From positions 1-50,230 of the forward strand of contig JAMJTW010000033.1 in the NCBI GenBank assembly GCA_024281175.1: DNA of 50,230 nucleotides, read 5' to 3'. This stretch comes from Candidatus Thiovulum imperiosus (GTDB lineage: Bacteria > Campylobacterota > Campylobacteria > Campylobacterales > Thiovulaceae). The notes below the pieces were generated by a model. It was given only the letters and a program-made list of their open reading frames with translations, made no database searches and was not told the DNA's origin. Position numbers and translations under genes: made by a program. Shown in pieces: positions 26,342 through 44,700 of this stretch; position 1 is the first letter of the stretch; each line of letters begins with the position of its first letter.

Positions 26342-26363
26342 AACTCTTGGAGCAAGGAAATAT

Positions 26364-26371
26364 GATAAAAT
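26364..26371 (+). promoter_or_regulatory. Probable -10 element of the structured RNA
   Basis: GATAAAAT, within TATGATAAAAT, matches the AT-rich extended -10 of Campylobacterota housekeeping promoters. A transcript starting 6-8 bases downstream would begin at about 26378, exactly at the 5' strand of the closing stem of the RNA described next. Confidence 0.5.
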
Positions 26372-26377
26372 GCCTTT

Positions 26378-26548
26378 TGGAAATTTTACTTCCATTTTGA
26401 ATTTGTCTTGATAAGGCTTTACCAGTGCCTACGATATGAACGGGGCTTTCTTCGGAAAGTCTTATCAAGGTGAATTCAGAGAGTTTATATCGTGAAACTG
26501 GTAACTTTACATATTAACTCTCTAAAAAAGAGAATTTCCACCAAATTT
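26378..26548 (+). ncRNA. Structured RNA candidate with closing stem and alternative helices (6S-like or novel)
   Basis: Stems read from sequence. P0: 26378-26387 with 26531-26540 (10 bp, one G-U) closes the whole RNA. P1: CTTGATAAG 26407-26415 with CTTATCAAG 26461-26469. P4: CTTTC-ttcg-GAAAG 26446-26459. P5: AGAGAGTT 26478-26485 with AACTCTCT 26516-26523. A competing helix P2/P3 pairs 26419-26426 with 26497-26504 and 26430-26437 with 26487-26494, nearly 16 bp with a small internal loop. P1 and P2/P3 cross, so this is a pseudoknot or a two-state switch. P0 is followed by a T-rich stretch. Closing stem, large central bubble and long inner stem resemble 6S RNA, but I recognise no conserved 6S sequence. 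Confidence 0.6.
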
Positions 26549-26565
26549 ATTTTTACCATATTTAA

Positions 26566-27315
26566 ATGAAAGAATTATTGAAAGTTTCTCAAAACAGAAT
26601 AGGAGATGACAAAGTAAATTCTGTTTCTGCTAGAGAATTGCACAAAGCGTTAGGTTTAGCAAAAAGCCAATTTAATAGATGGATAAAAACCAATTTGTTA
26701 GATAACCCTTTTTTTACTGAAAACATCGATTACATCGTCCATCGACTTAATGTCGATGGCTTACGACAAAATAGTCGAGGGTCTTGGATAGATAAAACAG
26801 GAAAAGTTGTTGAAATTATAGATTACATCTTAACTCTTGATACTGCAAAACATTTAACTATGCTTTCTAAAACTACAAAAGCTCATCAAATTAGAAACTA
26901 TTTCATTGAGATTGAAAAGAGGTTTTGGCAAGTTTCCGAAACAAAAGTTTCTCTAAAAGATTTGGATTTACAAGGTGTCAAGACAGATTTAAAAACTGTA
27001 AGCGAGATACTAAAGATTTTTCAAGAACACAACTCTTTAGAAAAAACGCAATTGGATAACTTCATAAATGCTAAATTTGGCGTTTCACTTCTTGAGAGTT
27101 TCAAAATCTCTTTTCAAGACACTCTGTTCCTACCAACAGAACTTGGAAAATTTATTGGAGTTTCTGGAGCTGAAATGAATAGGAAATTGAAAGAGAGAGG
27201 TTTTCAAATTCGAGATGGCAAACATTGGAAATTGACAGAAAAAGGCGTAGAGTTTGGAAATGATGTTTCCGAAGAGTTTCCACAACTCAAATGGAAGATT
27301 GATGTTCTTTTGTAA
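26566..27315 (+). CDS. AntA/AntB-type phage antirepressor-domain protein
   Basis: 249 residues. The N-terminal ~95 residues match the AntA/AntB antirepressor domain: VSARELHKALGLAKSQFNRWI, FFTENIDYI, then DYILTLDTAKHLTMLSKTTKAHQIRNYFIEIEKRF. The C-terminal part (about 185-249) looks like the DNA-binding tail seen in such proteins (FLPTELGKFIGVSGAEMNRKLKERG ... HWKLTEKG). Phage antirepressors relieve repression of lytic genes; chromosomal orphans often have unknown targets. No other phage gene is near. I see no Shine-Dalgarno before the ATG, odd for this window. It sits between the structured RNA and a MITE-like element, in an accessory patch, probably by transfer. Confidence 0.75.
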   Translation: MKELLKVSQNRIGDDKVNSVSARELHKALGLAKSQFNRWIKTNLLDNPFFTENIDYIVHRLNVDGLRQNSRGSWIDKTGKVVEIIDYILTLDTAKHLTMLSKTTKAHQIRNYFIEIEKRFWQVSETKVSLKDLDLQGVKTDLKTVSEILKIFQEHNSLEKTQLDNFINAKFGVSLLESFKISFQDTLFLPTELGKFIGVSGAEMNRKLKERGFQIRDGKHWKLTEKGVEFGNDVSEEFPQLKWKIDVLL

Positions 27316-27356
27316 GATGCTATTAAGTTAGGAAAACTACCGAACAATGATATTGG

Positions 27357-27531
27357 GGACTGACCAAATAGAGTATTTTTAGGCTTTAACAACCTATATG
27401 TCATTTCGAACCCTTTTGGGTGAGAAATCTTTTCTGTTACTTCGATTAAAACGATAAGTTTCCAAGATTTCTCAATCGCTACGCTCATATCGAAATGACA
27501 AGAGAGGCAGAAGCCTATTTGGTCAGTCCCG
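27357..27531. mobile_element. MITE-like palindromic element, copy C (most complete)
   Basis: 175 bases bounded by perfect 16-bp terminal inverted repeats, GGGACTGACCAAATAG (27357-27372) and CTATTTGGTCAGTCCC (27516-27531). Inside, the inverted core GTCATTTCGAACCC / GGGTGAGAAATCTT / AAGATTTCTCA / ATATCGAAATGACA is shared with copies A and B and with the tandem repeats upstream of fapA. There is no coding capacity, so it would need a transposase in trans. I could not identify a clear target-site duplication. Confidence 0.85.
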
Positions 27532-27563
27532 ATGTTTTAGGCTGAATGGTTATGATAAAACTA

Positions 27564-27569
27564 TATAAT
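27564..27569 (+). promoter_or_regulatory. -10 element (TATAAT) upstream of argJ
   Basis: A consensus TATAAT within CTATATAATATTTTC, 20 bases before the argJ ATG. The transcript would start near 27576, giving a leader of about a dozen bases. It lies just outside the MITE-like element, so argJ does not depend on read-through. Confidence 0.6.
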
Positions 27570-27588
27570 ATTTTCAAAAAGAGTGTAA

Positions 27589-28758
27589 ATGGTTAAAAAG
27601 AGAATTGAGGGTGGTGTTTCCGCACCAGATGGTTTTTTTAGTGATGGTGTTTCTGCAAATTTGAAAAGTGGTGGAGAGTTAGATTTAGGTTTTATATATT
27701 CTGATACGATTTCAAATGTTGGAGCTATTTTTACAAGTAACTCTTTTGTAGCATCGCCACTGAAACATTTTCAGAGAAATAGAATTTCAGAAACAGACTT
27801 TATTTTAGTAAATTCAAAAAATGCGAATGCGATGACTGGTGAAAAAGGCGTTGAAGATATAGAAACTATATTTTCACAACTTCCAAAGTTCCACAATCCA
27901 ATAATGAGTTCCACTGGAGTAATTGGAAACTTCTTGCCAATTGAAAAGATAGTTTCTGGTGCAAAGAGATTTGATTTAAGTTCTCAAAAAAGTGAAAACT
28001 TCGCTAAAGCGATAATGACAACTGATGCCTATCCAAAAGAGATAGCAATTCGTGTAGAACTTCCAGATGGAAAAAGCTACTCTGTTGGTGGTGTTGCTAA
28101 AGGTGCTGGAATGATAAATCCATCGATGGCAACAATGTTAGCTTTCATCACGACAGATTTAGAAATATCTACGGAAAAGATAGTAGAGCTTTTAAAAGAG
28201 AATAGTAAAACAACTTTTAACGCTATTTCGGTAGATGGAGATACCTCCACAAATGACTCTGTTTTTCTTTTAGCAAATGGAAAAAAAGGCTTTTATGACA
28301 AATCTTTTGAAGTAGTTTTACATGAAGTTATGAAATTTTTAGCTTTAGAAATTGTGAGAGATGGAGAAGGTGCTAAAAAGATGGTCTCTTTCCAAATTCG
28401 AGGTGCTAAAAATGATTTTGAAGCTGAAAAAATTGCAAAAACTCTTTCAGACTCTCTACTTGTGAAAACAGCTCTTTTTGGAGAAGACCCAAATTGGGGA
28501 AGAATTGCAATGAGTATTGGTGCTTCTGGTACTGAAGTCTCTGAAGAGAAACTCTCTATCTCTTATGAAGATGTTGAAGTTTTGAAAGATGGAAAAAATC
28601 TCTTCAATTCTGAAGTAGAGAAGAGAGCTTTTGAAATTTTAAAAAGAGAGAGTTTCACAATATTTTGTGATATTGGAGTTGGAGATGGAGAATTCAAAAG
28701 TTACGGTTGTGATTTGGGTTATGAGTATGTAAAGATAAATGCAGATTATAGAACTTAA
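27589..28758 (+). CDS. argJ: Glutamate N-acetyltransferase / amino-acid acetyltransferase ArgJ
   Basis: 389 residues. ArgJ recycles the acetyl group from N-acetylornithine to glutamate in arginine synthesis; bifunctional forms also use acetyl-CoA. The self-cleavage site is plain: MATMLAFITTDL near 185-196, cut between Ala and Thr to give alpha and beta chains with the new N-terminal Thr as nucleophile. VAKGAGMINPS, the oxyanion-forming TGVIGNFLP and GEDPNWGRI are also present. It starts with ATG at 27589. It stands alone; no other arg genes are in the window. Confidence 0.95.
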   Translation: MVKKRIEGGVSAPDGFFSDGVSANLKSGGELDLGFIYSDTISNVGAIFTSNSFVASPLKHFQRNRISETDFILVNSKNANAMTGEKGVEDIETIFSQLPKFHNPIMSSTGVIGNFLPIEKIVSGAKRFDLSSQKSENFAKAIMTTDAYPKEIAIRVELPDGKSYSVGGVAKGAGMINPSMATMLAFITTDLEISTEKIVELLKENSKTTFNAISVDGDTSTNDSVFLLANGKKGFYDKSFEVVLHEVMKFLALEIVRDGEGAKKMVSFQIRGAKNDFEAEKIAKTLSDSLLVKTALFGEDPNWGRIAMSIGASGTEVSEEKLSISYEDVEVLKDGKNLFNSEVEKRAFEILKRESFTIFCDIGVGDGEFKSYGCDLGYEYVKINADYRT

Positions 28759-28827
28759 AACTTTAATGTAAAATTTTTTCTAAAAGCTGGTAAAATTCAA
28801 ACTAAAATATTTTAAAGGGTATGTGTA

Positions 28828-29679
28828 ATGAGAGCCAATTTTTCACTTTCAGTAGCAGTTGCTGCACTATTAACAGTTGGTGGTTGTTCAAGTAAAACAG
28901 AAGAGGTTGCTGAGGAGCAAGTTTCTCAAGAAGTTACATCAGTAAAAGTTTCTCAAATTGATGTTGAGTCAGAAAAAGTTTTAAATAAAATTAGAGATTA
29001 CTCTTTTGAAAAACTTGGAGATACTGAAAATAGTGAAACTATTGCAAATACAATTGCAGATGAGCTTGACTCAGATGTTAGAGAGAATGTAAAAGTTTTC
29101 ATTAAAGATGGTGAACTTGATAGAATTGATAGTGTTGATGCTGACTCTGAATTAAATGAAGACTATATTGCTGAAAATGTTTTTGCTGATATGCAACCAC
29201 AAGTAGATGATAAATTAAGTCCTTATCTTGGAGAAGAAGAAGTTGTAGTTGAAGAGGCTATCTTAGATGAAGAGATAGTTGATGAAGCTGTTACAGAAGA
29301 GGTTATTGAGCCAGAACCTGTACAACTTCCAGTTGATGCGGTAGCTTCTATTAACTCTAGCTCTATTGTTTCAGGTAGTGCTGATATTACAGATGAGATG
29401 AAAGAAAATCTTGATGCTATTGCTTCTTTCTTAATTGAAAATCCAAGTTTCATAGCTGTTGTAAATAGCTATACTGACTCTACTGGTAGTGATGCTGTAA
29501 ATTTACAACTATCTCAAGAAAGAGCTGACAATGTTGCTGAGTATCTTGTAAGTAAAGGTGCTGCAATTTATCAAGCTATTGCAGATGGATATGGTGAAGC
29601 TGACCTTAAATATCCAGAAGACCCAACTTCTCCAGAAAACAGAAGATACGAAATCAAATTAGTTGAAAACGCAGAATAG
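28828..29679 (+). CDS. OmpA-family lipoprotein
   Basis: 283 residues. A signal peptide with lipobox TVGGC (Cys20) gives a lipoprotein. The middle (about 30-170) is acidic, rich in Glu/Val repeats (EEVVVEEAILDEEIVDEAVTEEV), and probably extended. The C-terminal ~110 residues are an OmpA-like peptidoglycan-binding domain with NSYTDSTGSDAVNLQLSQERADNVAEYL and the final NRRYEIKL. It likely tethers the outer membrane to the wall. It starts with ATG after AAAGGG, with a GGTAAAAT promoter-like box near 28790. Low-complexity acidic stretches could vary between strains. Not close enough to Pal to use that name. Confidence 0.8.
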   Translation: MRANFSLSVAVAALLTVGGCSSKTEEVAEEQVSQEVTSVKVSQIDVESEKVLNKIRDYSFEKLGDTENSETIANTIADELDSDVRENVKVFIKDGELDRIDSVDADSELNEDYIAENVFADMQPQVDDKLSPYLGEEEVVVEEAILDEEIVDEAVTEEVIEPEPVQLPVDAVASINSSSIVSGSADITDEMKENLDAIASFLIENPSFIAVVNSYTDSTGSDAVNLQLSQERADNVAEYLVSKGAAIYQAIADGYGEADLKYPEDPTSPENRRYEIKLVENAE

Positions 29680-30961
29680 AAATTTGGGGGCGAAAAGCCC
29701 TCTCAAAAAACCAGAACTTCTCTCTCCTGCTGGAAATCTTGAAAAACTTAAAATTGCTATCGATTTTGGTGCTGATGCTGTTTATGGTGGAGTAAGCCAC
29801 TTTTCACTTCGAATTCGTTCTGGAAAAGAGTTTAATTTAGAAACTTTTCGAGAGGGAATTGAGTATGCACATGCTAGAAATCGAAAAGTTTTTGTGACAA
29901 TAAATGGTTTTCCATTCAACTCCCAAGTAGACCTACTCCGAAATCACATAGCTACAATGAGAGATTTACAACCTGACGCTTTTATCATCTCAACTCCAGG
30001 AGTTCTAAAACTTGCAAAAGAGATAGCTCCAGATATGGAACTTCATCTCTCTACTCAAGCAAATGTAATGAACTATTTAGATGCTCAATTCTATTACGAT
30101 ATTGGTGTGAAACGAATTATTACTGCAAGAGAAATTTCACTTCAAGATTTAGAAAGTATCAAATCCAAAGTTCCAGATTTGGATTTAGAAGTTTTTATTC
30201 ACGGCTCAATGTGTTTTGCTTATAGTGGTAGATGTCTAATAAGTTCTCTTCAGAGTGGTAGAGTTCCAAATCGGGGAAGTTGTGCAAATGATTGCCGTTT
30301 CCCATATACAGTTTATGCTGAAAATGAAGAGACAGGAACTCTTTTCAAACTCGTTGAAGATGAGGGAGTTGGAACTTATATTATGAATGCAAAAGATTTA
30401 AATCTTTCAAGACATATTGAAGAGATAGTTAAATCTGGAGTTGTAGACTCTTTGAAAATTGAGGGACGAACAAAAAGTTCATACTATACAGCAATTACTA
30501 CTAAGACTTATCGAGAAGCGATAGATGATGCGATTTCTGGAGAGTATAAATCTGAAAAGTATTGGAGAGAGTTAGGAACAACTCAAAATCGAGGTTTTAC
30601 CGACGCCTACCTCATCCACAAACCTTTTGAGAAGAGTGATACTCAGGGACACGATATCACAATGTTAATGGGAACTCATCAAGTTTCTGGAATTGTTCTT
30701 GAAGAGGGCTACTTTATGTGCAAATTTACAACAAAAGCTGGAGACCAAATCGAGATAGTCTCTCCAAAAGAGATAGAACTTTTTGAAGTTGAAAATGAGT
30801 TTGGAAAGATATTTAAAGTTGATGAGGCTTGGTGGTATGTACCAAAGAAATTGGTAGCTAAAGATGGTAAAGAGTGGGATAGTGTTCATAGCGGAAATCT
30901 AAACCCAATTACACTACCAGCACCACTACCTCTAAACACATTTTTAAGAGTTAAAATTTAG
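29663..30961 (+). CDS. Peptidase U32 family protein (TrhP/YegQ-like)
   Basis: 432 residues from the longest start. U32 signatures: KPELLSPAGNLEKLKIAIDFGADAVYGG at the N-terminus, the Cys-rich GRCLISSLQSGRVPNRGSCANDCRFPY (near 190-215) likely binding Fe-S, and KIEGRTKSSYYT (near 267). YegQ/TrhP-type members take part in prephenate-dependent 5-hydroxyuridine formation in tRNA rather than proteolysis. The start is uncertain: TTG 29663 lies inside the preceding gene; TTG 29684 is the alternative and sits beside a small GGGC-gaaaa-GCCC hairpin. Both are weak. Confidence 0.85.
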   Translation: MKTQNRNLGAKSPLKKPELLSPAGNLEKLKIAIDFGADAVYGGVSHFSLRIRSGKEFNLETFREGIEYAHARNRKVFVTINGFPFNSQVDLLRNHIATMRDLQPDAFIISTPGVLKLAKEIAPDMELHLSTQANVMNYLDAQFYYDIGVKRIITAREISLQDLESIKSKVPDLDLEVFIHGSMCFAYSGRCLISSLQSGRVPNRGSCANDCRFPYTVYAENEETGTLFKLVEDEGVGTYIMNAKDLNLSRHIEEIVKSGVVDSLKIEGRTKSSYYTAITTKTYREAIDDAISGEYKSEKYWRELGTTQNRGFTDAYLIHKPFEKSDTQGHDITMLMGTHQVSGIVLEEGYFMCKFTTKAGDQIEIVSPKEIELFEVENEFGKIFKVDEAWWYVPKKLVAKDGKEWDSVHSGNLNPITLPAPLPLNTFLRVKI

Positions 30962-31013
30962 CAAAATTTAAGATGACTCCTTATACGATACTGAAAAATT
31001 TGGAGGTTTAGAA

Positions 31014-31727
31014 TTGGCTAATAACTTTTTTAACCAGAATAGTAGAGAAAGTAGTGGTATCGGTTTTGATGCTGGATATGGTATTCAGAGAAGTGATGCT
31101 GAACTTGTAACTTTTATCAAAGATACTTACAAGTTGTTTGCTGCAACTATGTTAGCTGGTACAGTTGGTGCTTATATCGGTGTTGATATGGCTCCAAAAA
31201 TCGCTAGTATGATTTGGCTCTTTATCATTTTAGAAATTGGTCTTCTAATTGGTATAAATTTTGTAAAACATAAATCACCTGTAAATCTTATGGTTGTTTT
31301 TGCTTTTGCATTTGTAAGTGGACTTACACTTGGACCACTGCTTTATAAATTTCTAGCAATGCCTGGTGGTGCAGCAATTATTGCTAACGCTTTTGCTATG
31401 ACAACTATCATTTTTGGTGGTCTCTCCCTTTTTGCAATTAGAACAAAAAGTGATTTTACCTCTATGGGAAAACCTCTTATGATAGCTCTAATTGTTGTAA
31501 TGATTGGAAGTATTGTAAATATATTTCTTGGAAATCCAATATTACATATTGTTATTCAAGGTGCAGTAGTTATGATTTTCAGCTTCTTTATCATTTATGA
31601 TACTCAAAACATCATTCAAGGAAACTATGAAACTCCAATTGATGGTGCTGTTGGTCTCTACTTAGATTTCTTAAATCTCTTTACAGCTCTACTTCAAATT
31701 CTCGGAATTATGGGAAGTGATGACTAA
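31014..31727 (+). CDS. Bax inhibitor-1/YccA family membrane protein
   Basis: 237 residues with seven membrane helices. BI-1 family marks include FAFVSGLTLGPLLY, IYDTQNIIQGNYE and the final LYLDFLNLFTALLQILG. In bacteria, members such as YccA modulate the FtsH protease or act as pH-sensitive calcium leaks; the role here is unknown. It starts with TTG at 31014 after a strong GGAGG. A TATACGAT box near 30980 could be its promoter. The next gene, thiD2, starts inside its last codons. Confidence 0.88.
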   Translation: MANNFFNQNSRESSGIGFDAGYGIQRSDAELVTFIKDTYKLFAATMLAGTVGAYIGVDMAPKIASMIWLFIILEIGLLIGINFVKHKSPVNLMVVFAFAFVSGLTLGPLLYKFLAMPGGAAIIANAFAMTTIIFGGLSLFAIRTKSDFTSMGKPLMIALIVVMIGSIVNIFLGNPILHIVIQGAVVMIFSFFIIYDTQNIIQGNYETPIDGAVGLYLDFLNLFTALLQILGIMGSDD

Positions 31728-32145
31728 TTTGTCAAAAGAGGAGAAATCTCTCCTCTTTCGAGGCATTGATGCAAACTTAAATCGTCTCAAAGAGGGTTTA
31801 AGAGTTTTAGAAGATATCTGTCGCTTTTCAGATAAAAAAGAGGTGGCTTCACAATTTAAAGAGCTTCGCCATCTTGCAACACTACCAAACTACAAAACCT
31901 ATTTACAATTTCGAGATATTGAAAATGATGTATTAAAAGAGAGTTTGAAAATTGAAAATCGCAGAGTTGGAATCTCAGACTTGATTCTTGCAAATTTCAA
32001 AAGAGTTCAAGAATCAAGTAGAGTTCTCGAAGAGTTTTTCAAATTAGAAAACTTAGAGACTTCAGAAATATTTAAGAAAATTAGATACAAAGCCTACTCT
32101 CTTGAGAAAAAGAGTCTAATAGAAGACTCTTTAGACTCTACATAA
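31720..32145 (+). CDS. ThiD2-type hydroxymethylpyrimidine phosphate kinase-like protein (stand-alone)
   Basis: 141 residues from ATG 31720 (GTG 31717 is just upstream in frame). FRGIDANLNRLKEGLRVLEDICRF near the N-terminus, followed by FKELRHL and FRDIENDV, matches the ThiD2 domain, usually fused to the N-terminus of thiamine phosphate synthase ThiE. ThiD2 phosphorylates HMP-P to HMP-PP without acting on free HMP. Here it is a separate gene, coupled to a BI-1 family gene by an 8-bp overlap. Older annotations call such proteins thiamine-phosphate pyrophosphorylase. Its 3' end carries a terminator hairpin and meets the convergent rnj stop. Confidence 0.7.
   Translation: MTNLSKEEKSLLFRGIDANLNRLKEGLRVLEDICRFSDKKEVASQFKELRHLATLPNYKTYLQFRDIENDVLKESLKIENRRVGISDLILANFKRVQESSRVLEEFFKLENLETSEIFKKIRYKAYSLEKKSLIEDSLDST
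32110..32131. terminator. Terminator hairpin within the end of thiD2
   Basis: AAGAGTCT (32110-32117) and AGACTCTT (32124-32131) form an 8-bp stem inside the last codons of the plus-strand gene, 7 bases from the rnj stop on the other strand. The same AGAGTCT core is used at 11363 and 14696. No long T-run follows, so it may work as a two-way stop for convergent transcription. Confidence 0.45.
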
Positions 32146-34048
32146 CAAAAACAGAAGGAACGATAAGAGGATATTTTTTCTGTTTTCGGTAGATGTGTTT
32201 TCGAACAACAATTTTAATATCGTTCTCCAACGCTCTTGGATTATCAAGAAGGTGAGGTTTAAGACTTGACAAGAAGTTTTCAAGAACACCGACAAGTTCC
32301 ATTGAAAGAGCTTTCTCCATTTTATCTGAAACAAGTCCAAAAGTTGTTACCATCGGTTTAGAAAGTAGTATTCCCTCATCTTTTGAGACTTGGGCTACAA
32401 GAACAACAATACCGTCAGTAGCAAGTTTTTGTCTATCAATTACAATATCTGTATCGATTTTGATATTGTTCTGATTATCAATGAATGTTTTTCCTGTTCG
32501 AACATGTCGAACTTTTTTCATATATTTTGGGTGAATTTCTATCTGGTCACCATCTCTCATGATTAGGATATTTCGGTCTGGAACTCCACACTCTTTAGCA
32601 GTTTGTCGATGAGCGTTTGTGTGATTATACTCTCCATGAACAGGCAAGAAAAATTTAGGTTTTACAAGTCTCAACATAAGTTTCTGCTCCTCTTTTGAGG
32701 CGTGTCCAGAAACATGAATATTTTGAACTCGATTGAAAACTTTCGCACCAAGCATCTCTAAATAGTTTATCATGGTTGAAATTCCAGCTTCATTTCCAGG
32801 AATTGCTCTGGCTGAGAGAATAACTGTATCAGTTGGTTTAATTCTTACAAGTTTATGTTCACTCCGTGCAATTTTATATAGAGCTGAATTTGTCTCACCT
32901 TGAGAACCTGTTGTAACAATTAGAATTTCATTATCTCGATATCTATTGAGTTGATGAGGTTCAATAAAAATATCTTTATGAAGTCTAATATAGTCATAAT
33001 TTATTGCGGTTTCAATATTTCTCTCCATAGAGCGACCAATTACACAAATTTTTCTATTGTATTTTAAACCAGCAATAATTGCTTGATAGACTCTATGAAT
33101 ATTTGAAGAGAATGTAGACATAATAATTCGTCCTTTCATCTCAGCAAAAATCTTATCAAATGCTGAAAATACCAAACTTTCACTAGGTGTATTTCCGCTA
33201 TTATGCGAATTTGTAGAGTCACTCAATAATGCTAAAACACCATTTTCACCATAATAGGCAAATCTATGAATATCAGCTGGATAACCATCTACTGGAGTGT
33301 GGTCAAATTTGAAATCTCCAGTGTGAATTATTGTTCCAGCTTCTGTAACAACAGCGAGAGAAGATGAGTCAATAATAGAGTGAGTCATATGTATCCACTC
33401 AACTTTAAAATCATTCCCAATCTCTATAAGTTGTCTCTTTTCTACGGGTCTAAAATAGCTTTTGTGTTGTGTTATCTTATGCTCTTGAAACTTACTTAAA
33501 ATCATCGCAAGAGGTAGTGGCGTTCCATAAATTGGAAGCTGAAACTCTTTAAAAAGATATGGCACTGCTCCAATATGGTCTTCATGACCATGAGTGATAA
33601 TAAATGCAACAAGTTTATGGCGAATTTGTCGAAGATATGTGAAATCTGGAATAAGAATATCCACACCATGCATATCTTCAGTTGGAAAGCTAATTCCAAT
33701 ATCGATAACAATTGCCTCTTCTTCAGTCTCAATTACAGTTATATTTCCACCAACTTCTCCAAGACCTCCAAGAGGAGTTATTCGAATTCTGGCATCTGTA
33801 TTGAAATTCAACTTATTGAAACTGTTTAGTCGTCTATAATGCATCTTCTGATTTTTCTCAACAAAAGGTCTTAAAGTTGAGTCCATAAGACCATATTGAA
33901 CTTTATAATCTGCACCAACATAAGTACTATATGATGAGTCAGAGTGTCGATTTTCTGACCCACTACTTCCTAATCTATGCCCTTTTCTGGAAGATGATTT
34001 CTTCTTAAATCGTCTCTCCCTTTTTGGAGCTGTCTCTTTCTCTTCCAA
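32138..34048 (-). CDS. rnj: Ribonuclease J
   Basis: 636 residues. The metallo-beta-lactamase/beta-CASP core begins near residue 90 (GGLGEVGGNITVIE) and has the zinc motif HGHEDHIG (near 154-161), then HTGDFKFD and HVSGHASKEE. RNase J is a 5'-3' exo- and endoribonuclease and the main mRNA decay enzyme where RNase E is absent. A basic, Ser/Arg-rich N-terminal extension of ~85 residues resembles the one in Helicobacter pylori RNase J. The start is TTG at 34048, 44 bases inside rsmA, so the two are translationally linked. The rsmA-rnj order is conserved in Helicobacter. Confidence 0.95.
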   Translation of the reverse strand: MEEKETAPKRERRFKKKSSSRKGHRLGSSGSENRHSDSSYSTYVGADYKVQYGLMDSTLRPFVEKNQKMHYRRLNSFNKLNFNTDARIRITPLGGLGEVGGNITVIETEEEAIVIDIGISFPTEDMHGVDILIPDFTYLRQIRHKLVAFIITHGHEDHIGAVPYLFKEFQLPIYGTPLPLAMILSKFQEHKITQHKSYFRPVEKRQLIEIGNDFKVEWIHMTHSIIDSSSLAVVTEAGTIIHTGDFKFDHTPVDGYPADIHRFAYYGENGVLALLSDSTNSHNSGNTPSESLVFSAFDKIFAEMKGRIIMSTFSSNIHRVYQAIIAGLKYNRKICVIGRSMERNIETAINYDYIRLHKDIFIEPHQLNRYRDNEILIVTTGSQGETNSALYKIARSEHKLVRIKPTDTVILSARAIPGNEAGISTMINYLEMLGAKVFNRVQNIHVSGHASKEEQKLMLRLVKPKFFLPVHGEYNHTNAHRQTAKECGVPDRNILIMRDGDQIEIHPKYMKKVRHVRTGKTFIDNQNNIKIDTDIVIDRQKLATDGIVVLVAQVSKDEGILLSKPMVTTFGLVSDKMEKALSMELVGVLENFLSSLKPHLLDNPRALENDIKIVVRKHIYRKQKKYPLIVPSVFVM

Positions 34049-34826
34049 TTTGAAGCCTTAAATTTTTATAGATTTGGTGATAATCTATTGTTGTAACTTG
34101 ATGAGGTCGCAGAGATAAATTTAACTTTCTCTCTTCAAAAATTTTCCGTAACTCCTCTTTTGAGTAGGTTGTCGAAAGATTTTTAAACAGAGTCTTTCTT
34201 GGCTGTTGAAAAGCGTATAGAAGAAATTTCTGAAAATCTTTAGAAACCTCATCACCACTATTTTTCTGAAACTGTATAACTAACGAGTCTACTTTTGGTT
34301 CAGGTTCAAAAGCTGTCGGTGGAACAAAAACAACCTCTTTCACCTCTGAAATACTTTCTGCTATTACAGATAGAGAAGAGAAATTTCGCTCTCCAACTTT
34401 TGCTAAAAACTTATTACCAACCTCTTTTTGCACCATAACTGTAATAGAGATACAGTTTCTATCTTGAAGTGCTTTTAAAACTATATTTGTAGCTACATAA
34501 TATGGAAGATTTGCTACTATCTTATATCTCTCTTCTCTTAAATTACCATTCTGCCAATATGACAAAACATCACCACAAATTAGTTCAAATCGCTCTTCTT
34601 CAATCTCTTTCGAAAATCTCTCTTTTAAATATTCACACAGCTCTAAATCTATCTCGTATGCAACAACTTTATGAAACTCTAATAGAGGTTTTGTCAAATC
34701 ACCCAACCCAGCCCCAATTTCAATAACTCTATCATCTCCATTGGGGATCGCTTTGATGATTTTCTGTTTTACAATCTCATCTTTTAAAAAGTTCTGTCCA
34801 AATCTCTTTTTTGCTTTAATTTCCAA
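34005..34826 (-). CDS. rsmA: 16S rRNA A1518/A1519 dimethyltransferase RsmA (KsgA)
   Basis: 273 residues. RsmA dimethylates two adenines in helix 45 of 16S rRNA late in 30S assembly. FGQNFLKDE at the N-terminus, the SAM motif VIEIGAGLGDLT (near 35-46) and catalytic NLPYYVAT (near 105-112) are clear, as is LRPHQVTTIDY at the C-terminus. The start is TTG at 34826. Its 3' end overlaps rnj by 44 bases, an unusually long overlap that the homologous pair in this phylum also tends to show. Confidence 0.95.
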   Translation of the reverse strand: MEIKAKKRFGQNFLKDEIVKQKIIKAIPNGDDRVIEIGAGLGDLTKPLLEFHKVVAYEIDLELCEYLKERFSKEIEEERFELICGDVLSYWQNGNLREERYKIVANLPYYVATNIVLKALQDRNCISITVMVQKEVGNKFLAKVGERNFSSLSVIAESISEVKEVVFVPPTAFEPEPKVDSLVIQFQKNSGDEVSKDFQKFLLYAFQQPRKTLFKNLSTTYSKEELRKIFEERKLNLSLRPHQVTTIDYHQIYKNLRLQIGRERDSSKKGETI

Positions 34827-38415: not shown

Positions 38416-38779
38416 TCTCTCCCATCATTTTAATACTCTTTTCGAAAGAACCCATATACATAGCAGCCTTAATTTTAGAACCTTTAAATCCAAAACCTGG
38501 TGCAATCATAGCTTTTTTAACTCCAAGCTCACCTTGAACAACTTTTCTCCAGCCTTCGTAAGGAGCCCACATATCAAACTCGATTTTATCTCCATTTACA
38601 GCACCATGATAAGTAATTTCACCTTTCTCAACATTAACTTGTAGTGGTGCTAATTCCTCTTTATCACTTACTCTATAAACAAAGTTTCCTGTAAACTTTT
38701 TAAGACCTTTTTTTAACTCTTCGTTACTTTTCCAAGCCCCAACATAAGCTTCGCACCATTCACTACTTAAAAATTGCAT
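38399..38779 (-). CDS. Small SCP2-like (sterol carrier type) domain protein
   Basis: 126 residues from the chosen ATG 38779, which has GGAG at good spacing; the frame is open 22 codons further but without a ribosome site. The protein resembles SCP-2 sterol-transfer folds: an N-terminal MQFLSSEWCEAYVGAWKSNEEL, a beta region with VEKGEITYHGAVNGDKIEFDMWAPYEGWRKVV, and a C-terminal KGSKIKAAMYMGSFEKSIKMM. SCP2-like proteins bind lipids or thioesters in a hydrophobic tunnel; the ligand here is unknown. It is coupled to hemW downstream. Assignment is tentative. Confidence 0.55.
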   Translation of the reverse strand: MQFLSSEWCEAYVGAWKSNEELKKGLKKFTGNFVYRVSDKEELAPLQVNVEKGEITYHGAVNGDKIEFDMWAPYEGWRKVVQGELGVKKAMIAPGFGFKGSKIKAAMYMGSFEKSIKMMGEIDTEF

Positions 38780-38834
38780 AGAGAACTCCATTTTCAAAAA
38801 TTTATAAACAGCCAAAATTCTAACATAAAAATTA

Positions 38835-38842
38835 GATAAAAT
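38835..38842 (+). promoter_or_regulatory. Probable -10 element for the lipoprotein nuclease gene
   Basis: GATAAAAT within TTAGATAAAATCACG, 25 bases before the GTG start, in the divergent gap between the SCP2-like gene and the nuclease gene. The same GATAAAAT form is seen before the structured RNA at 26364. Confidence 0.5.
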
Positions 38843-38866
38843 CACGAAAAATTTTTAAGGAGAGTT

Positions 38867-39943
38867 GTGAAACACCTTTTATTTATCCCTGTTTTAGCTA
38901 TCTTTATTGGTTGTGGAGATACTCCAGATTTTGTATCCATCGACCATTCAAAGAGAGAGCATATACGAGTTGCTACTTATAATGTAGAAAATCTTTTCGA
39001 TTTAACTTATAACGGTAGCGAATATCTTGAGTACATTCCAGACAGTCCTACAAATTGGAACAAGGAAAACTATCAGAAGAAGATAGAGAACATCTCTAAA
39101 GTTATTCGAGATATTGATCCTGACATCATTGGTCTTGAAGAGATAGAGTCAAAAGAGGCACTTTTAGATTTAAAAGAGAACTTGGGAACTTACAAATATT
39201 TTGCAATTGCTGATGAGAAACTCAAAAAGAGTGGAAAAGCATCTGTTACAATGGCTCTGCTCTCAAAGTTTCCAATCGAGTCTATTTCAGAAGTAAAAGT
39301 TACAAATCACCCAATGAATAGAAATATCTTGGAAGTTGTAGTGAAAGTTGGAAAAGAGCCTCTACATATTTTTGTAAATCACTGGAAAGCAAAAAGTGGA
39401 CCTGAAACAAAAAGAATTAGAAGTGCAGAGTACTTGAAAGAGAGATTAGACAAACTTTCAGATAGTACACCTTATATACTTTTGGGAGATTTTAACAGTA
39501 ACTATAATGAGTACATCACATTTCAAAATAGTAAAAATTTGAATGACTCTGATGGCAAAACAGGAATAAATCACACTCTTGGAACAGTCAAAGATGCTGG
39601 TGGTTGGTTCTCTTCAAAATATGAGTTTGTTTCAAAAGGAGTAGCTCAAAATCAGAGAGGAAATGATTTACATTACAGTTTATGGCTAGAACTACCAGAA
39701 GATGATAGATGGAGTTATAAATATAATAAGAAGAAAGATACACTTGACAGTATGATAATTTCAAAAGGATTACTAGATAGTACAGGTCTTGAGTATGTTG
39801 ATGGTACATTTAAAGTTTATCGTGAAGGCGGTGTTTTAGATAGTAAGGGCAATGTATTCCGATGGAAAAAAGATAGCAAGAAAAGACATCTAGGAGAAGG
39901 TTTCTCTGACCACCTTCCAATATACGCTGATTTCAGCTACTAA
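38867..39943 (+). CDS. Lipoprotein of the endonuclease/exonuclease/phosphatase family
   Basis: 358 residues. A short signal peptide with lipobox FIGC (Cys16) predicts export and lipid anchoring. The EEP fold follows: RVATYNVENLFD (near 34-45), GLEEIESKEA with the metal Glu (near 90), VNHWKAKSG, LLGDFNSNYNEY (near 206) and the terminal FSDHLPIYADF catalytic His. Exported EEP nucleases degrade extracellular DNA, for example for phosphate or biofilm turnover; lipid or phosphoester substrates are also possible. The start is GTG at 38867 after AAGGAGAG. It is a single gene between a divergent and a convergent neighbour. Confidence 0.8.
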   Translation: MKHLLFIPVLAIFIGCGDTPDFVSIDHSKREHIRVATYNVENLFDLTYNGSEYLEYIPDSPTNWNKENYQKKIENISKVIRDIDPDIIGLEEIESKEALLDLKENLGTYKYFAIADEKLKKSGKASVTMALLSKFPIESISEVKVTNHPMNRNILEVVVKVGKEPLHIFVNHWKAKSGPETKRIRSAEYLKERLDKLSDSTPYILLGDFNSNYNEYITFQNSKNLNDSDGKTGINHTLGTVKDAGGWFSSKYEFVSKGVAQNQRGNDLHYSLWLELPEDDRWSYKYNKKKDTLDSMIISKGLLDSTGLEYVDGTFKVYREGGVLDSKGNVFRWKKDSKKRHLGEGFSDHLPIYADFSY

Positions 39944-39952
39944 CCAATTTTT

Positions 39953-39969
39953 CCCAAGTTTTACTTGGG
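39953..39969. terminator. Inverted repeat between convergent genes
   Basis: CCCAAG, loop TTTTA, CTTGGG, extended by flanking T5 on the left and A-rich sequence on the right. It separates the nuclease gene and the Csd3-like gene. The A/T flanks pair with each other instead of leaving a free T-tract, so it may act by blocking convergent transcription. Confidence 0.45.
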
Positions 39970-39983
39970 AACTAAAAAAATCC

Positions 39984-41285
39984 CTATTCCCAATACTCTT
40001 CAGAAAGTTCTAAAGAGTCACTATCTGAAGATGTAAATTTTAGTGCCGACCTCTCTTCTGGAATAAAGTCTATATAGTTGCTACTATCGGCAGAAGCGAT
40101 ATTTGTAATTGTAGTTTCACATTTTAATTTTATTGGTTCATATTTTGCGACAAGAATTCGTCCAGATTTATAATCTGTAATAAGAGTTTCTACCTGCTCT
40201 TTAAGTCTATCTCTCTTCTCTTTAAATCCATACCACTCATTTTTAGAAATCTTCTCTTTAAACTCAATTGTTACAAGGTTTTCAGGGTTTATAGCTTTTC
40301 CATCTTTATAGAGACCAAAATGGAGATGAGGTCCTGTTGAGAGACCAGTTGAACCAACTGTTCCAATCTGCTCACCTTTTTTAACTCTGCTACCAAATCT
40401 TAAATGAGACATATATCTGTTCATGTGAGCGTAAAGAGTCATATATCCGTCTGTGTGCCAAACTTTTACTAGATTTCCATATCCTCGAGTTGTTCCAACA
40501 AAAACAACAGTACCATCTCCTGATGAGTAGATTGGAGTACCAGTTCTTGCAGCAAGGTCAATTCCTAAATGAGCTCTATATTTTCTTAAAATTGGATGCC
40601 ATCTCTTATTAGTAAATCGAGAAGAGATACGAAATTTTCCCTTTTTAATTGGAGATGTTAAACCACTATCTTTTAAAACCTCGCCTTTGAAGTTATAGAG
40701 TCGTCCAAAATGTTTAATTACAAACATCTCTCTATTTCCACTTTTTAACATTGCCATCTTCAAATTTACACCACCAAAAGGAGTTCCAAGTCGATAGTTT
40801 CTTTTGTATAAAACGGAAAGCATACTTCCTCTATGAATATCCGTTCTAAAGTTTATTCTTGGCTCTAACGCTTTAACAACAAATTGAGCAAAAGAGTGTG
40901 ATTGAGTAGCACTTTTGACATTTTCATAAAGAGACTCTTCCAAGATTTTAGTTACAAACTGCTCTTCAACTTGCTGATACTCTATTGGAATTGCTTCTAA
41001 GAAATATTTCTCTTTATACCTATATATATGTATCTGAATTTCGTCCCCAACTGGAATTAGTATTTGTCGAGAAGTTCCATTCAAATCTTTTAGAACATAG
41101 TAAGTAACACCAGAGTAGATATCTTCTGTAAGTTTCTTGTCATCATCATCTGCATCATAATAGAGTGAAAAAGGGAGTTTCTCGCTTTCAAGAAACCCTA
41201 GAAAAGTCTCTCCCTCTTTCCAAGTCTGTAACTGAATTGAGGAAGAGAGTAGAAAAGTTGGGAAAATGAGTAGCAGGTATCTCAA
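39984..41285 (-). CDS. Csd3/HdpA-like M23 (LytM) peptidoglycan peptidase
   Basis: 433 residues. An N-terminal signal peptide (MRYLLLIFPTFLLSSSIQ) is followed by an OapA/LysM-like middle and a C-terminal LytM domain (about 215-330) with complete zinc motifs HLGIDLA (H-x3-D) and HLHFG (H-x-H). The arrangement matches Csd3/HdpA of Helicobacter pylori, a DD-carboxypeptidase/endopeptidase that trims cross-links and sets cell shape. A C-terminal tail of ~100 residues extends beyond LytM. The start is TTG at 41285, 11 bases after leuA ends, so it may be read from the leuA transcript. Confidence 0.82.
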   Translation of the reverse strand: MRYLLLIFPTFLLSSSIQLQTWKEGETFLGFLESEKLPFSLYYDADDDDKKLTEDIYSGVTYYVLKDLNGTSRQILIPVGDEIQIHIYRYKEKYFLEAIPIEYQQVEEQFVTKILEESLYENVKSATQSHSFAQFVVKALEPRINFRTDIHRGSMLSVLYKRNYRLGTPFGGVNLKMAMLKSGNREMFVIKHFGRLYNFKGEVLKDSGLTSPIKKGKFRISSRFTNKRWHPILRKYRAHLGIDLAARTGTPIYSSGDGTVVFVGTTRGYGNLVKVWHTDGYMTLYAHMNRYMSHLRFGSRVKKGEQIGTVGSTGLSTGPHLHFGLYKDGKAINPENLVTIEFKEKISKNEWYGFKEKRDRLKEQVETLITDYKSGRILVAKYEPIKLKCETTITNIASADSSNYIDFIPEERSALKFTSSDSDSLELSEEYWE

Positions 41286-41296
41286 AGTGGCTTCTC

Positions 41297-42937
41297 TTAA
41301 AAAGCTCTATTTATTGCTGAAAACATAGCTTTAATTGACGCTTTTGTGGTATCTGTATCGATACCAATTCCAAAAAATCTATCAAAAGTTGTAGTTTGAA
41401 CTTGAATATAAGCTACTGCACTTGCATTTGCTCCACTACCTTTTGAGTGTTCATTAAAAGAGATAATTTCAAATTTATGAGGAAACTCTTTTTCTAAAGC
41501 TCTTTTTGCTCCATCTAAAATTCCATTTCCACTACCCCAAATAGAGAACTCTTTTCCTAAATAGCGAAAATCCAATTTACACTGAACCTCATCACCTTTT
41601 TCACTTCTTTTGAAATTTATAAACTCTAAATCACCTTTCTGAAAATACTCTTTCTCAAATTCAGAAAAAATCTCTTTGTAAGAGAGTTCTCTCTCCTCTA
41701 AATCACTCTTTTTCTGAACTATCTTTCCAACTTCAGGATGCATCGCTTTTGGAAGTTCATATCCAAAACTATTTTCCAAAATATAAGCAACTCCACCCTT
41801 TCCAGATTGAGAATTTATCCTAATAATATCTTCATAAGTTCGCCCAACATCATTTGGGTCAATTGGAAGATATGGCACTTCCCAAAGAGGTTCTTCTTTT
41901 GTTGTCTGATAAGCAAGACCCTTATTTATCGCGTCTTGATGGGAGCCTGAAAAAGCGGTATAGACAAGCTGACCAACATAAGGATGTCGAACACCCGTCT
42001 CTATTTCAGTAACAGACTCCACAACTTCTAAAACTCTATTTACATCTGAGAAATCTAAATTTGACTCAACTCCTTGAGTTGTCATATTTAAAGCAAGAGT
42101 TAAAATATCAACATTTCCAGTTCGCTCACCATTTCCAAGTAGAGTTCCCTCAACTCTATCACCTCCAGCCATTAAACCTAGCTCTGTCGCTGCGACTGCT
42201 GTTCCTCGGTCGTTATGAGCATGTAGAGATAAAACTATCTTTTCTCTATTTTTCAAATTCTTGCTCATCCACTCTATCTGGTCTGCATAAATATTTGGAG
42301 TTGCCATCTCAACTGTTGCAGGAAGATTTATAATTGTCTTTTCTCCCCATCTTTCAACAACAGCATCACAAATATCTCTTGCAAATTCTAACTCTGTTCC
42401 TGTAAAACTTTCTGGAGAGTATTCCAAAGTGATTTCTGTATCAATTTTCTTTTTCTCTACCAAAATCATATCTACACCTTTTAAAGCAAGTTCTATGATT
42501 TCCTCTTTCTCTTTTCGAAAAACTATCTTTCTCTGAGCTACAGAAGTAGAGTTATACAAATGGACTACCGCTTTTTTAACACCCTTTAAACTCTCAAAAG
42601 TTCTTTTTATTAGATGTTCTCTAGCTTGAACTAAAACTTGAACTGTAACATCATCAGGTATTAAATTCTCTTCTACAAGAGTTCGTAAGAATTTGAATTC
42701 TGTTTTTGATGCTGATGGAAACCCAACTTCAATATTTTTAAATCCAATCTGAACAAGCAATTTAAAGAGTTTCAGTTTTTTGTCCAAATCCATAGGATTG
42801 ATGAGTGCTTGATTTCCATCTCTTAAATCAACACTACACCAGATAGGAGCATTTTCAATTCTCCTATTTACCCACTCTCTATTTGGTAAATCTACTTGAG
42901 GATATGCCACATATTTACCATTTGGAACATTTTTCAT
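41297..42937 (-). CDS. leuA: 2-isopropylmalate synthase
   Basis: 546 residues. LeuA condenses acetyl-CoA with 2-oxoisovalerate, the first committed step of leucine synthesis. WCSVDLRDGNQALINPM (near 33-49), metal-binding LHAHNDRGTAVAATELG (near 237-253) and GNGERTGNVD are canonical. The length and C-terminal regulatory domain (SKGSGANASAVAYIQVQT) fit the type found in actinobacteria and some proteobacteria, with leucine feedback. It starts with ATG at 42937. The leader has an AT-rich promoter (AAATTATATAGG, minus strand). leuB-D are not nearby. Confidence 0.95.
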   Translation of the reverse strand: MKNVPNGKYVAYPQVDLPNREWVNRRIENAPIWCSVDLRDGNQALINPMDLDKKLKLFKLLVQIGFKNIEVGFPSASKTEFKFLRTLVEENLIPDDVTVQVLVQAREHLIKRTFESLKGVKKAVVHLYNSTSVAQRKIVFRKEKEEIIELALKGVDMILVEKKKIDTEITLEYSPESFTGTELEFARDICDAVVERWGEKTIINLPATVEMATPNIYADQIEWMSKNLKNREKIVLSLHAHNDRGTAVAATELGLMAGGDRVEGTLLGNGERTGNVDILTLALNMTTQGVESNLDFSDVNRVLEVVESVTEIETGVRHPYVGQLVYTAFSGSHQDAINKGLAYQTTKEEPLWEVPYLPIDPNDVGRTYEDIIRINSQSGKGGVAYILENSFGYELPKAMHPEVGKIVQKKSDLEERELSYKEIFSEFEKEYFQKGDLEFINFKRSEKGDEVQCKLDFRYLGKEFSIWGSGNGILDGAKRALEKEFPHKFEIISFNEHSKGSGANASAVAYIQVQTTTFDRFFGIGIDTDTTKASIKAMFSAINRAF

Positions 42938-43131
42938 TTCTGAAACCCTTTAACCTATATAATTTGGGCGGTATTTTACCAAAACTATATTTTGGACAAA
43001 AAACTATAAATAAAAACATATCAGGTTGGAAAGTATTTAAAATTGAAGTAAGATTACTAACTTTTATATTTTTCTTAGAATTCTATAAAGATTGCAAAAA
43101 ATTATTTTGTGAATATGAAAAAATATGGAAG

Positions 43132-43208
43132 TGGTGTCAAGAGAGAGACTTGAACTCTCGACCTCCGGCTTATGAGACCAGCGCTCTAACCAGCTGAGCT
43201 ACCTTGAC
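43132..43208 (-). tRNA. tRNA-Met (anticodon CAT)
   Basis: Minus strand. Acceptor GTCAAGG pairs with TCTTGAC (one G-T), discriminator A, CCA encoded at 43132-43134. The anticodon loop CTCATAA gives CAT; T-arm GAGAG-TTCAAGT-CTCTC. The fully paired first base pair argues against initiator tRNA; elongator Met is most likely, though an Ile tRNA with lysidine cannot be excluded. It lies 194 bases upstream of leuA on the same strand; that gap holds the leuA promoter and nothing else I can name. Confidence 0.93.
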
Positions 43209-43251
43209 CTTTTTTTGAGTGGCGGAATTATACTCATAAATTTTCAATTTG

Positions 43252-43908
43252 TCAATCTCTCCAGAGGTAGACAATCTCTAAAGTTATATTTTGGATTACA
43301 TCTTCCGAAATAAAATTTCGAATTTGATTTGGAGATATAGAGAGACCACCGCCAGAAACTCCACTCTCTTTAATGTATTTTAAAACTTCTCTACTATTTG
43401 AAAACTCTATTTCAAAATTCTCAACTTCATACTGAAAACCATTAGCAAAACTCAAAATCTCATTTAAAGAGTAGATTGGTGATGAGGTTTGAAAATATTT
43501 ATGAACTTCTGAAAATGTTTTACTTGTAAATAGAGATAGATAAGTTGGAATTTCTAATTCTGATATTTTTTCCAAAAGTTCTTTTAAGTTTGAACTCCAT
43601 TGTAGAGAAGAGCTTGAGATAAGAGTATCGCTTTTTGGAAATTTTAAAGCATCGAAGTTTTCAAAAATAAGTTCGGTTTTAAATTTTGGGTGAAGTTTTA
43701 ACATCTCTTTTGAGAAGTCTACTCCTATAAATTTATCAAATTCCCAATCTATATTTTTATAGATAAAACCGCTACCGCACCCTAAATCTAAAATATGTTT
43801 TGGTCTCTCTTTTACTCTCCCAACTAAGTTTTTGGCTACTTGGTTTTGGATAAATCCTCTACTCTCATAATTTCTTGAAGAGCGAGAAAAGGCTTTTTCT
43901 ACACTCAT
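43252..43908 (-). CDS. bioC: BioC-like SAM-dependent methyltransferase
   Basis: 218 residues. SAM motif I is HILDLGCGSGFIY (near 38-50), motif II FIGVDFSKEML; SSSSLQWSSN near 97-106 matches the BioC SNLALQW-type substrate segment, and ESGVSGGGLS near the end fits as well. BioC methylates malonyl-ACP to start pimelate synthesis for biotin. The N-terminus VEKAFSRSSRNYES is also typical. It starts with ATG overlapping the znuB-like stop (ATGA). No other bio genes are in view, so a different acceptor remains possible. Confidence 0.75.
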   Translation of the reverse strand: MSVEKAFSRSSRNYESRGFIQNQVAKNLVGRVKERPKHILDLGCGSGFIYKNIDWEFDKFIGVDFSKEMLKLHPKFKTELIFENFDALKFPKSDTLISSSSLQWSSNLKELLEKISELEIPTYLSLFTSKTFSEVHKYFQTSSPIYSLNEILSFANGFQYEVENFEIEFSNSREVLKYIKESGVSGGGLSISPNQIRNFISEDVIQNITLEIVYLWRD

Positions 43909-44699
43909 TTTCTATTCAAAACTGTACTAAAAAGAAATATTAGAATTGCACTCAAAACAATTGATGCTCCACTTGGAACTGAAAAATAGAATGAGAGAAT
44001 TAAACCAGTAAAAGTTGAAAATAGAGAAAAGAGAATTGCAAAACCTAAAGTTTGAACAAAACCTTTTCTATATTGTAGTGCTGAAACAACTGGAATTACT
44101 ATCATTGCTCCAATTAGAAGAGAACCAATTATATGAATTGAGAAAGCGATAAGCATTGCAACAAGAGAGAGAAAAAGAAAATTTAGAAGATTTACTTTCA
44201 CACCACTAACTTTTGCAACACTTTCATCAAGAGTTAAATAGATGAAGTTTTGAAGATGATAAAACATAAAGAGAACAATTAAAATTCCAGTACCACTTAT
44301 CACATACAAATCTATCTCTTTTACAGTTAGAATTGAACCAAAAAGATAAGAGAGAAGAGATGCATTGAAATTGTCACTTAAACTCACAATTACAATAGAT
44401 AGAGATAGAGAAGCTGAAAGAAAAATTGAGAGTAGAGAGTCTGAATATATCTTATAGTGACTTCTTAAATACTCTATTAGCCAAGAGAGAAGAAGAACTA
44501 CTGCAACAGTAGATAGAGTTGGAGAAATACCAATGACGATACCTGAAGCAACACCTAGAAGAGAGATGTGAGCAAGAGTATCTGCCAACATAGAGTATCG
44601 TTTTAAAACAACAAACATTCCAAGAATTGGTGCAACAAGACCGATAATGCCACCAGCAAGAAATGCTCTCATCATAAAATCGTATTGAAAAATTTCCAA
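43905..44699 (-). CDS. Zinc/metal ABC transporter permease (ZnuB family)
   Basis: 264 residues, about eight membrane helices. Family signatures are FVVLKRYSMLADTLAHISLLGVA (near 30-52) and HIIGSLLIGAMIVIPVVSALQ (near 190-210). ZnuB-type permeases carry zinc or manganese with a periplasmic binding protein and an ATPase, neither encoded here. TTG 44699 starts one base after the uvrD stop and the stop overlaps bioC, so uvrD-znuB-bioC is one transcript of unrelated functions. Confidence 0.88.
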   Translation of the reverse strand: MEIFQYDFMMRAFLAGGIIGLVAPILGMFVVLKRYSMLADTLAHISLLGVASGIVIGISPTLSTVAVVLLLSWLIEYLRSHYKIYSDSLLSIFLSASLSLSIVIVSLSDNFNASLLSYLFGSILTVKEIDLYVISGTGILIVLFMFYHLQNFIYLTLDESVAKVSGVKVNLLNFLFLSLVAMLIAFSIHIIGSLLIGAMIVIPVVSALQYRKGFVQTLGFAILFSLFSTFTGLILSFYFSVPSGASIVLSAILIFLFSTVLNRK

Positions 44700-44700
44700 G

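Follow-up and report, generated by a model that had tools for sequence, protein, structure and literature searches.

The window, a stretch of 50,230 nucleotides from Candidatus Thiovulum imperiosus, carries a structured RNA that forms the 5′ leader of an antirepressor gene and contains a hypervariable antisense arm, together with the target that this arm matches. With moderate confidence, we propose that this RNA acts as an antisense switch embedded in its own transcript, comparable to c4 RNA from phages P1 and P7, and that it would confer copy-specific immunity.

Promoter, RNA and antirepressor gene form one duplicated unit

The leader was defined as the stretch at 26371-26565, between an extended −10 promoter element and the AUG (26566) of the antirepressor gene (Table 1). 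The motif TGNTANAAT was present upstream of the RNA in all 13 copies described below, with a spacing fixed per group and against a background of 0.007 per 50 nt; a good −35 element was not found, and the extended −10 element was unlisted in the sigma-70 consensus scan. The encoded protein matched the AntA (PF08346; 62.8 bits, cut-off 27) and KilAC (PF03374; 26.1 bits, cut-off 25.3) domain models. The N-terminus of the gene downstream of the RNA was AntA-type in 12 of the 13 copies and Rha-type in the remaining one (C9), and the C-termini were KilAC-type in this genome, with different ends in T. stygium. Three of the genes are split (kar157, kar118 and sty34) and one is truncated (C10a), implying that part of the family is decaying. 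The neighbours of the unit in the window are the housekeeping genes dxr, recN and argJ, with no prophage.

Table 1. Positions in the window of the promoter, the leader RNA helices and the antirepressor gene
Feature	Position (nt)	Strand	Remarks
Extended −10 promoter element TGATAAAAT	26363-26371	+	Predicted transcription start a few nt downstream
P0, outer closing stem	26378-26387 / 26531-26540	+	10 bp; MFE fold and alignment
P2, stem of hairpin 1 (26399-26477)	26399-26415 / 26461-26477	+	17 bp including three U-G pairs
P1, constant antisense arm (UUACCAGU) / target (ACUGGUAA)	26419-26426 / 26497-26504	+	8-9 bp; crosses P2
P1b, hypervariable antisense arm / target	26430-26441 / 26483-26494	+	Copy-specific; crosses P2; 10-13 bp among copies
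P3, UUCG-capped hairpin	26446-26450 / 26455-26459	+	
P5, stem of hairpin 2 (26479-26522)	26479-26483 / 26518-26522	+	Target strands in its loop
Antirepressor gene	26566-27315	+	249 aa; AntA N-terminal domain and KilAC C-terminal domain

Thiovulum species are giant sulfur bacteria. A DNA search of the genome itself identified eight places, comprising seven full units and one fragment (C10b). Alignment of this genome's copies showed a conserved, sharply delimited block that starts with the −10 element, takes in the RNA and the gene and ends at the stop codon, and in the case of two units in tandem the second starts at the stop codon of the first. Promoter, RNA and gene are one unit that is duplicated together; the initial annotation had correctly placed an antirepressor beside the RNA, but had taken it for a mere neighbour. 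Genome searches with R1, a covariance model of the RNA core, revealed three copies each in Ca. Thiovulum karukerense (JAMJTX) and Ca. T. stygium (CP091137; 34251-34421, 300326-300494 and 914613-914784), giving 13 full copies in three Thiovulum species (7 + 3 + 3). A further AntA gene of T. karukerense lies at a contig end (contig C133) and its leader runs off the contig, so that the copy numbers from draft genomes are minimum values.

The RNA was not found in the third other genome of the family (G001), despite the many KilAC genes there, in 397 other genomes of the class searched with strict filters, or, under looser search settings, in any of the order's 35 other genomes. Neither blastn nor a pattern search detected copies in phages, plasmids and IMG/VR, and the RNA was not found upstream of AntA genes on viral contigs. 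Three pattern matches outside Thiovulum (Flavobacterium, Prevotellaceae and Methylococcaceae) gave no score with the covariance model and were discarded.

The fragment C10b (contig C10:49344-49454) is a solo remnant of hairpin 1 with a partly decayed stem, has neither target nor antirepressor gene, and adjoins genes for ribosomal proteins (by eye, rpsL/rpsG). The C9 and C8a targets are its best partners (−16.7 and −16.3 kcal/mol, respectively), and it is a pseudo-copy or else an antisense RNA that stands on its own.

The leader RNA comprises two hairpins with matching loops

Folding of the leader on the plus strand gave a minimum free energy (MFE) of −54.2 kcal/mol, compared to −33.4 ± 3.9 kcal/mol in dinucleotide shuffles (z −5.29; 0 of 200 shuffles). 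The minus strand folded less stably (z −2.78, dinucleotide shuffles), and the z-score of the plus strand was the more negative one in all 13 copies. In addition, three adjacent positions of P2 are mostly U-G pairs, which become C-A on the opposite strand. The retention of these U-G pairs and the strand-biased folding in 13 of 13 copies indicate that the element is an RNA of the plus strand.

The layout is that of two hairpins with matching loops. Hairpin 1, closed by P2, contains a constant strand UUACCA(A)GU, a variable strand and the UUCG-type hairpin P3, and hairpin 2, closed by P5, contains both target strands. Across species, the constant strand, UAAGGCUU(U)ACCA(A)GUGCCU, shows strong conservation. 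In the 13-copy alignment, which was built on the model and is hence biased towards it, 98.6% of cells were paired in P2, with both-side changes at four pairs, and 100% in P3 and in P5, with both-side changes at three pairs and one pair, respectively. An A insertion in some copies of P1 is mirrored by a U insertion on the opposite strand (UUACCAAGU/ACUUGGUAA). In a 7-copy MAFFT alignment blind to structure, the pseudoknot model including P1 and P1b had 95.8% of cells paired and 12 pairs changed on both sides, with a covariation score of 0.231 compared to 0.141 for shuffled versions (0 of 500) and at most 0.083 for slid versions; in this alignment, 96.4% of cells were paired in P1, and P1b showed both-side changes at nine of its ten pairs.

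These results bear on the five-stem drawing of the initial annotation. Its stems P0, P1, P2/P3 and P5 exist where it had drawn them, with folding stability, recurrence and covariation exceeding chance, and its proposal that P1 crosses P2, requiring a pseudoknot or two alternative folds, is backed by covariation in three species; the most informative helix, P1b, had been overlooked. The compensatory changes for which it had suggested looking in relatives were found in P2, P3 and P5 but not in P0. The latter is present in this genome's copies, with mismatches in some, while its 5′ strand had no match in the other two Thiovulum species and the promoter is only 14-18 nt before the modelled core start, so a conserved closing stem was not supported. 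Two other candidate helices were rejected as general features: P6 (CUCU/AGAG) is limited to this genome's copies, and P4 (GCC/GGC), which was discerned by eye in nine of the 13 copies, is missing from T. stygium.

Inspection by eye showed that in several copies P1b shares positions with the 5′ strand of P5, suggesting that the leader is a switch. In the model, the 18-21 bp loop-loop helix would form either alongside both stems or in place of them. Separately, the region at 26545-26570 of the window, like the corresponding region of all copies, has no Shine-Dalgarno-like sequence and is AU-rich, and an ACC recurs roughly 15 nt upstream of the AUG. In this genome, the sequence UUACCA in this stretch would be able to base-pair with UGGUAA, the target strand of P1, and is a possible third partner in the switch.

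One arm is hypervariable and matches its own target copy by copy

Among this genome's copies, the p-distance was 0.54 for P1b, 0.07 for P2 and 0.06 for P1, and the core outside P1b differed by 11%. The duplex energies of each arm with its own target ranged from −21.7 to −29.2 kcal/mol in the 13 copies, and the own target was the best partner in 12 of them; the arm of the window tied with the C8b target (−23.9 versus −24.0 kcal/mol). Mean non-self pairing in this genome was −13.6 kcal/mol. When partners were permuted within species, none of 100,000 permutations reached the observed self-pairing sum. Insulation was weaker in T. karukerense, whose three copies are little different (non-self −22.5 kcal/mol). 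The window unit and C14 encode a near-identical N-terminus and differ in P1b, implying that the same gene type can bear different keys. The RNA is structured, one of its arms is hypervariable, and the complementarity of this arm to its target is copy-specific.

Proposed mechanism and alternative explanations

We infer that the unit is transcribed, that hairpin 1 is released and pairs in trans, that the outcome is silencing and that the antirepressor has a biological role, and propose that these steps are connected as follows. A single promoter would give a transcript consisting of hairpin 1, then hairpin 2 and then the antirepressor gene. Hairpin 1 would display the constant P1 and the variable P1b antisense arms, hairpin 2 would display the matching target, and the two would pair over 18-21 bp either in cis or, once hairpin 1 is released, in trans with sister transcripts made from the same copy. 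This pairing would stop expression of the downstream gene, possibly through remodelling of the leader, blocked ribosome access, an effect on ribosome standby, early termination or cleavage of the duplex. The silencing step is uncertain because the P1 target ends 61 nt from the AUG, no conserved Shine-Dalgarno sequence was found near the antirepressor AUG among the copies, no frame or start of an icd-like leader ORF is conserved among them, and no terminator-like site was found at the leader. Each copy would switch off its own expression and that of any incoming element sharing its key, and would leave its paralogs unsilenced because the variable arm differs between copies.

A solely structural role of P1b in cis would also preserve complementarity, which counts against the c4-like switch. 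The main rival is a purely cis-acting leader: a stable two-hairpin kissing structure, a pseudoknot or a two-state switch would determine how strongly the antirepressor is translated, perhaps by sensing temperature, a ligand or a protein (the gene's own product), with P1b free to vary as long as it is paired. We regard this explanation as rather unlikely, though several observations favour it: the cis fold is strong, the crossing of P2 by P1 and P1b and the overlap with P5 seen by eye in several copies allow alternative folds, every copy has the RNA as 5′ leader to its own gene, and the constant strand is well conserved across species. However, drift limited by pairing only should affect all stems equally, whereas P1b changes about seven times as much as P2 and about nine times as much as P1, yet is matched, and this sevenfold excess argues against a cis-only function. 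Moreover, no riboswitch or other Rfam family was matched, and the missing terminator-like site also disfavours such a leader.

It is highly improbable, in our estimation, that the unit is an RNA-protein module in which the antirepressor binds its own leader, either for autoregulation or with the RNA as a type III toxin-antitoxin-like antitoxin, making trans pairing unneeded. RNA and gene are always found together, and the KilAC part weakly resembles the candidate defence model PDC-S69 (E 6e-5, 51 residues), but the C-terminus of the protein varies by species and one N-terminus is Rha-type while the RNA is constant, and known RNA-antitoxin families gave no match. The least probable of the explanations considered is that the inverted repeats act as DNA, marking the ends of a small mobile element or serving as its recombination signals, with the element spreading as promoter-RNA-gene units. 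The units are indeed multi-copy, both dispersed and in tandem, and sharply bounded from the −10 element to the stop codon; however, the P2 U-G pairs and the strand-biased folding point to RNA, the unit has no transposase or integrase, and the matched arms are internal to it rather than terminal.

If the c4-like antisense switch is correct, each RNA of an insulated set would be addressed solely to its own gene or to an incoming phage that carries the same key. We advance more tentatively the further possibility that this RNA family is unrelated to C4 and independently evolved c4-type self-addressed silencing, giving a diversifying set of orphan, insulated chromosomal switches. The c4-like leader RNA would represent a second architecture among the few antisense RNAs that police antirepressors, located outside recognizable prophages, with up to seven full copies per genome and one hypervariable, always-matched recognition arm. 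The 13 matched RNA pairs are a natural set for testing how immunity specificity diversifies, and the leader family offers a handle on the dozens of antirepressor-like genes of Thiovulum.

KilAC-type genes in Thiovulum

Matches to the window protein numbered 39, 26, 7 and 33 in four Thiovulum-family genomes, often in tandem, showing that KilAC-type genes are a large Thiovulum paralog family. Many of the inspected KilAC genes were preceded by a small helix-turn-helix gene (by eye) and had a short leader hairpin only. This small ORF is Cro/CI-like (VKKTCRELGITQKELAE...) and precedes many KilAC-ended genes, which carry mix-and-match N-terminal domains and often occur in tandem arrays with a spacing of about 1.05-1.2 kb; their short leaders contain a variable inverted repeat of 8-10 bp, e.g. 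CAGAAGAGT...ACTCTTCTG. The arrays may consist of repressor-antirepressor cassettes whose operators or leader hairpins are copy-specific, and we suggest, as a suggestion only, that the RNA-led units may be a branch in which RNA replaced the repressor. On contig C25, the same KilAC gene pair with identical upstream sequence was observed in opposite orientation at 26500-34500 and 38500-46500; these two stretches form a large inverted duplication, either real or from assembly.

Comparison with known systems

A search of PMC, whose scope excludes most subscription journals, returned nothing relevant on an earlier description of an AntA/KilAC leader RNA. At gathering score, the Rfam search of the whole window returned two tRNAs only. 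The initial annotation had recognized no conserved sequence of 6S, SRP, tmRNA, RNase P or a known riboswitch, which agrees with the absence of a match to any Rfam family at the leader, but had also seen the outline of 6S RNA, with closing stem, bubble and inner stem, in the P2/P3 fold. This outline is indeed similar; however, neither 6S nor another RNA family was found at gathering score, nothing relevant appeared at E up to 10, and, unlike 6S RNA, the Thiovulum RNA turned out to be a multi-copy 5′ leader of antirepressor mRNAs with an unconserved closing stem.

Two phage systems also invite comparison. The sar RNA of phage P22 is a separate RNA that pairs with ant mRNA and blocks translation initiation (PMC12197685). 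The Thiovulum RNA resembles it as a small RNA that would silence an antirepressor by base pairing, but both of its partners lie within one leader. IsrK of prophage Gifsy-1 (anrP) activates through an upstream ORF (PMC12197685). Like the Thiovulum RNA, in which such control is putative, IsrK is a leader-type RNA that controls a prophage regulator, but the Thiovulum leader has no conserved upstream ORF.

The closest parallel is with C4. In phage P1, read directly, the order is promoter, a1/b1, c4 (77 nt), a2, b2, icd and ant, and P1 c4 scored 68.8 bits with the Rfam C4 model as a positive control. In C4, a UUCG hairpin accompanies a long basal stem, and the b′ arm sits in the loop of a hairpin while the a′ arm is unpaired. 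Like C4 (RF01695) with its target motif c4-a1b1 (RF03163), both of P1/P7 and related phages, the Thiovulum RNA has a hairpin unit of about 80 nt with a long basal stem and a UUCG hairpin. Two antisense arms are complementary to downstream targets on the same transcript in all 13 Thiovulum copies, and, as in C4, the antisense order is constant (b′) to variable (a′) and the target order variable to constant. A KilAC-domain antirepressor gene, here under putative control, lies directly downstream; the KilAC domain of P1 Ant1 is the same domain as here, the proteins being otherwise unalike. The multi-copy C4 RNAs of A. baumannii have the a′ specificity arm as their sole variable region, and a 4-nt difference in a′ suffices to separate P1 from P7 (PMC5320573); the Thiovulum RNA likewise occurs in several copies per genome, with the specificity arm as the sole hypervariable part.

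In contrast, the Thiovulum RNA matches neither of the two covariance models. No match to the C4 model was obtained across the window at gathering score, in the leader even with E up to 10, or genome-wide, and the R1 model did not match phage P1. The UUCG hairpin is located 3′ of the arms, whereas in C4 it is 5′ (UUCG hairpin, b′ hairpin, a′ single strand), and the inner hairpin loop holds the variable arm rather than the constant one. Pairing covers 18-21 bp as opposed to 7 + 8 in C4, and the distance from the target end to the AUG contrasts with P1, where b2 ends 11 nt from the icd start. The C4 target covers the ribosome binding site of icd, an ORF coupled to ant, whereas the Thiovulum target is off the ribosome site, there is no icd-like ORF and the unit lies outside a prophage. 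C4 itself is cut from its leader by RNase P and acts in trans; release and trans action of hairpin 1 are predicted for Thiovulum. Because model score, piece order and target position all differ from C4, the RNA is not classed as C4; by our analysis, it appears to work like c4 in its layout and in its specificity logic.
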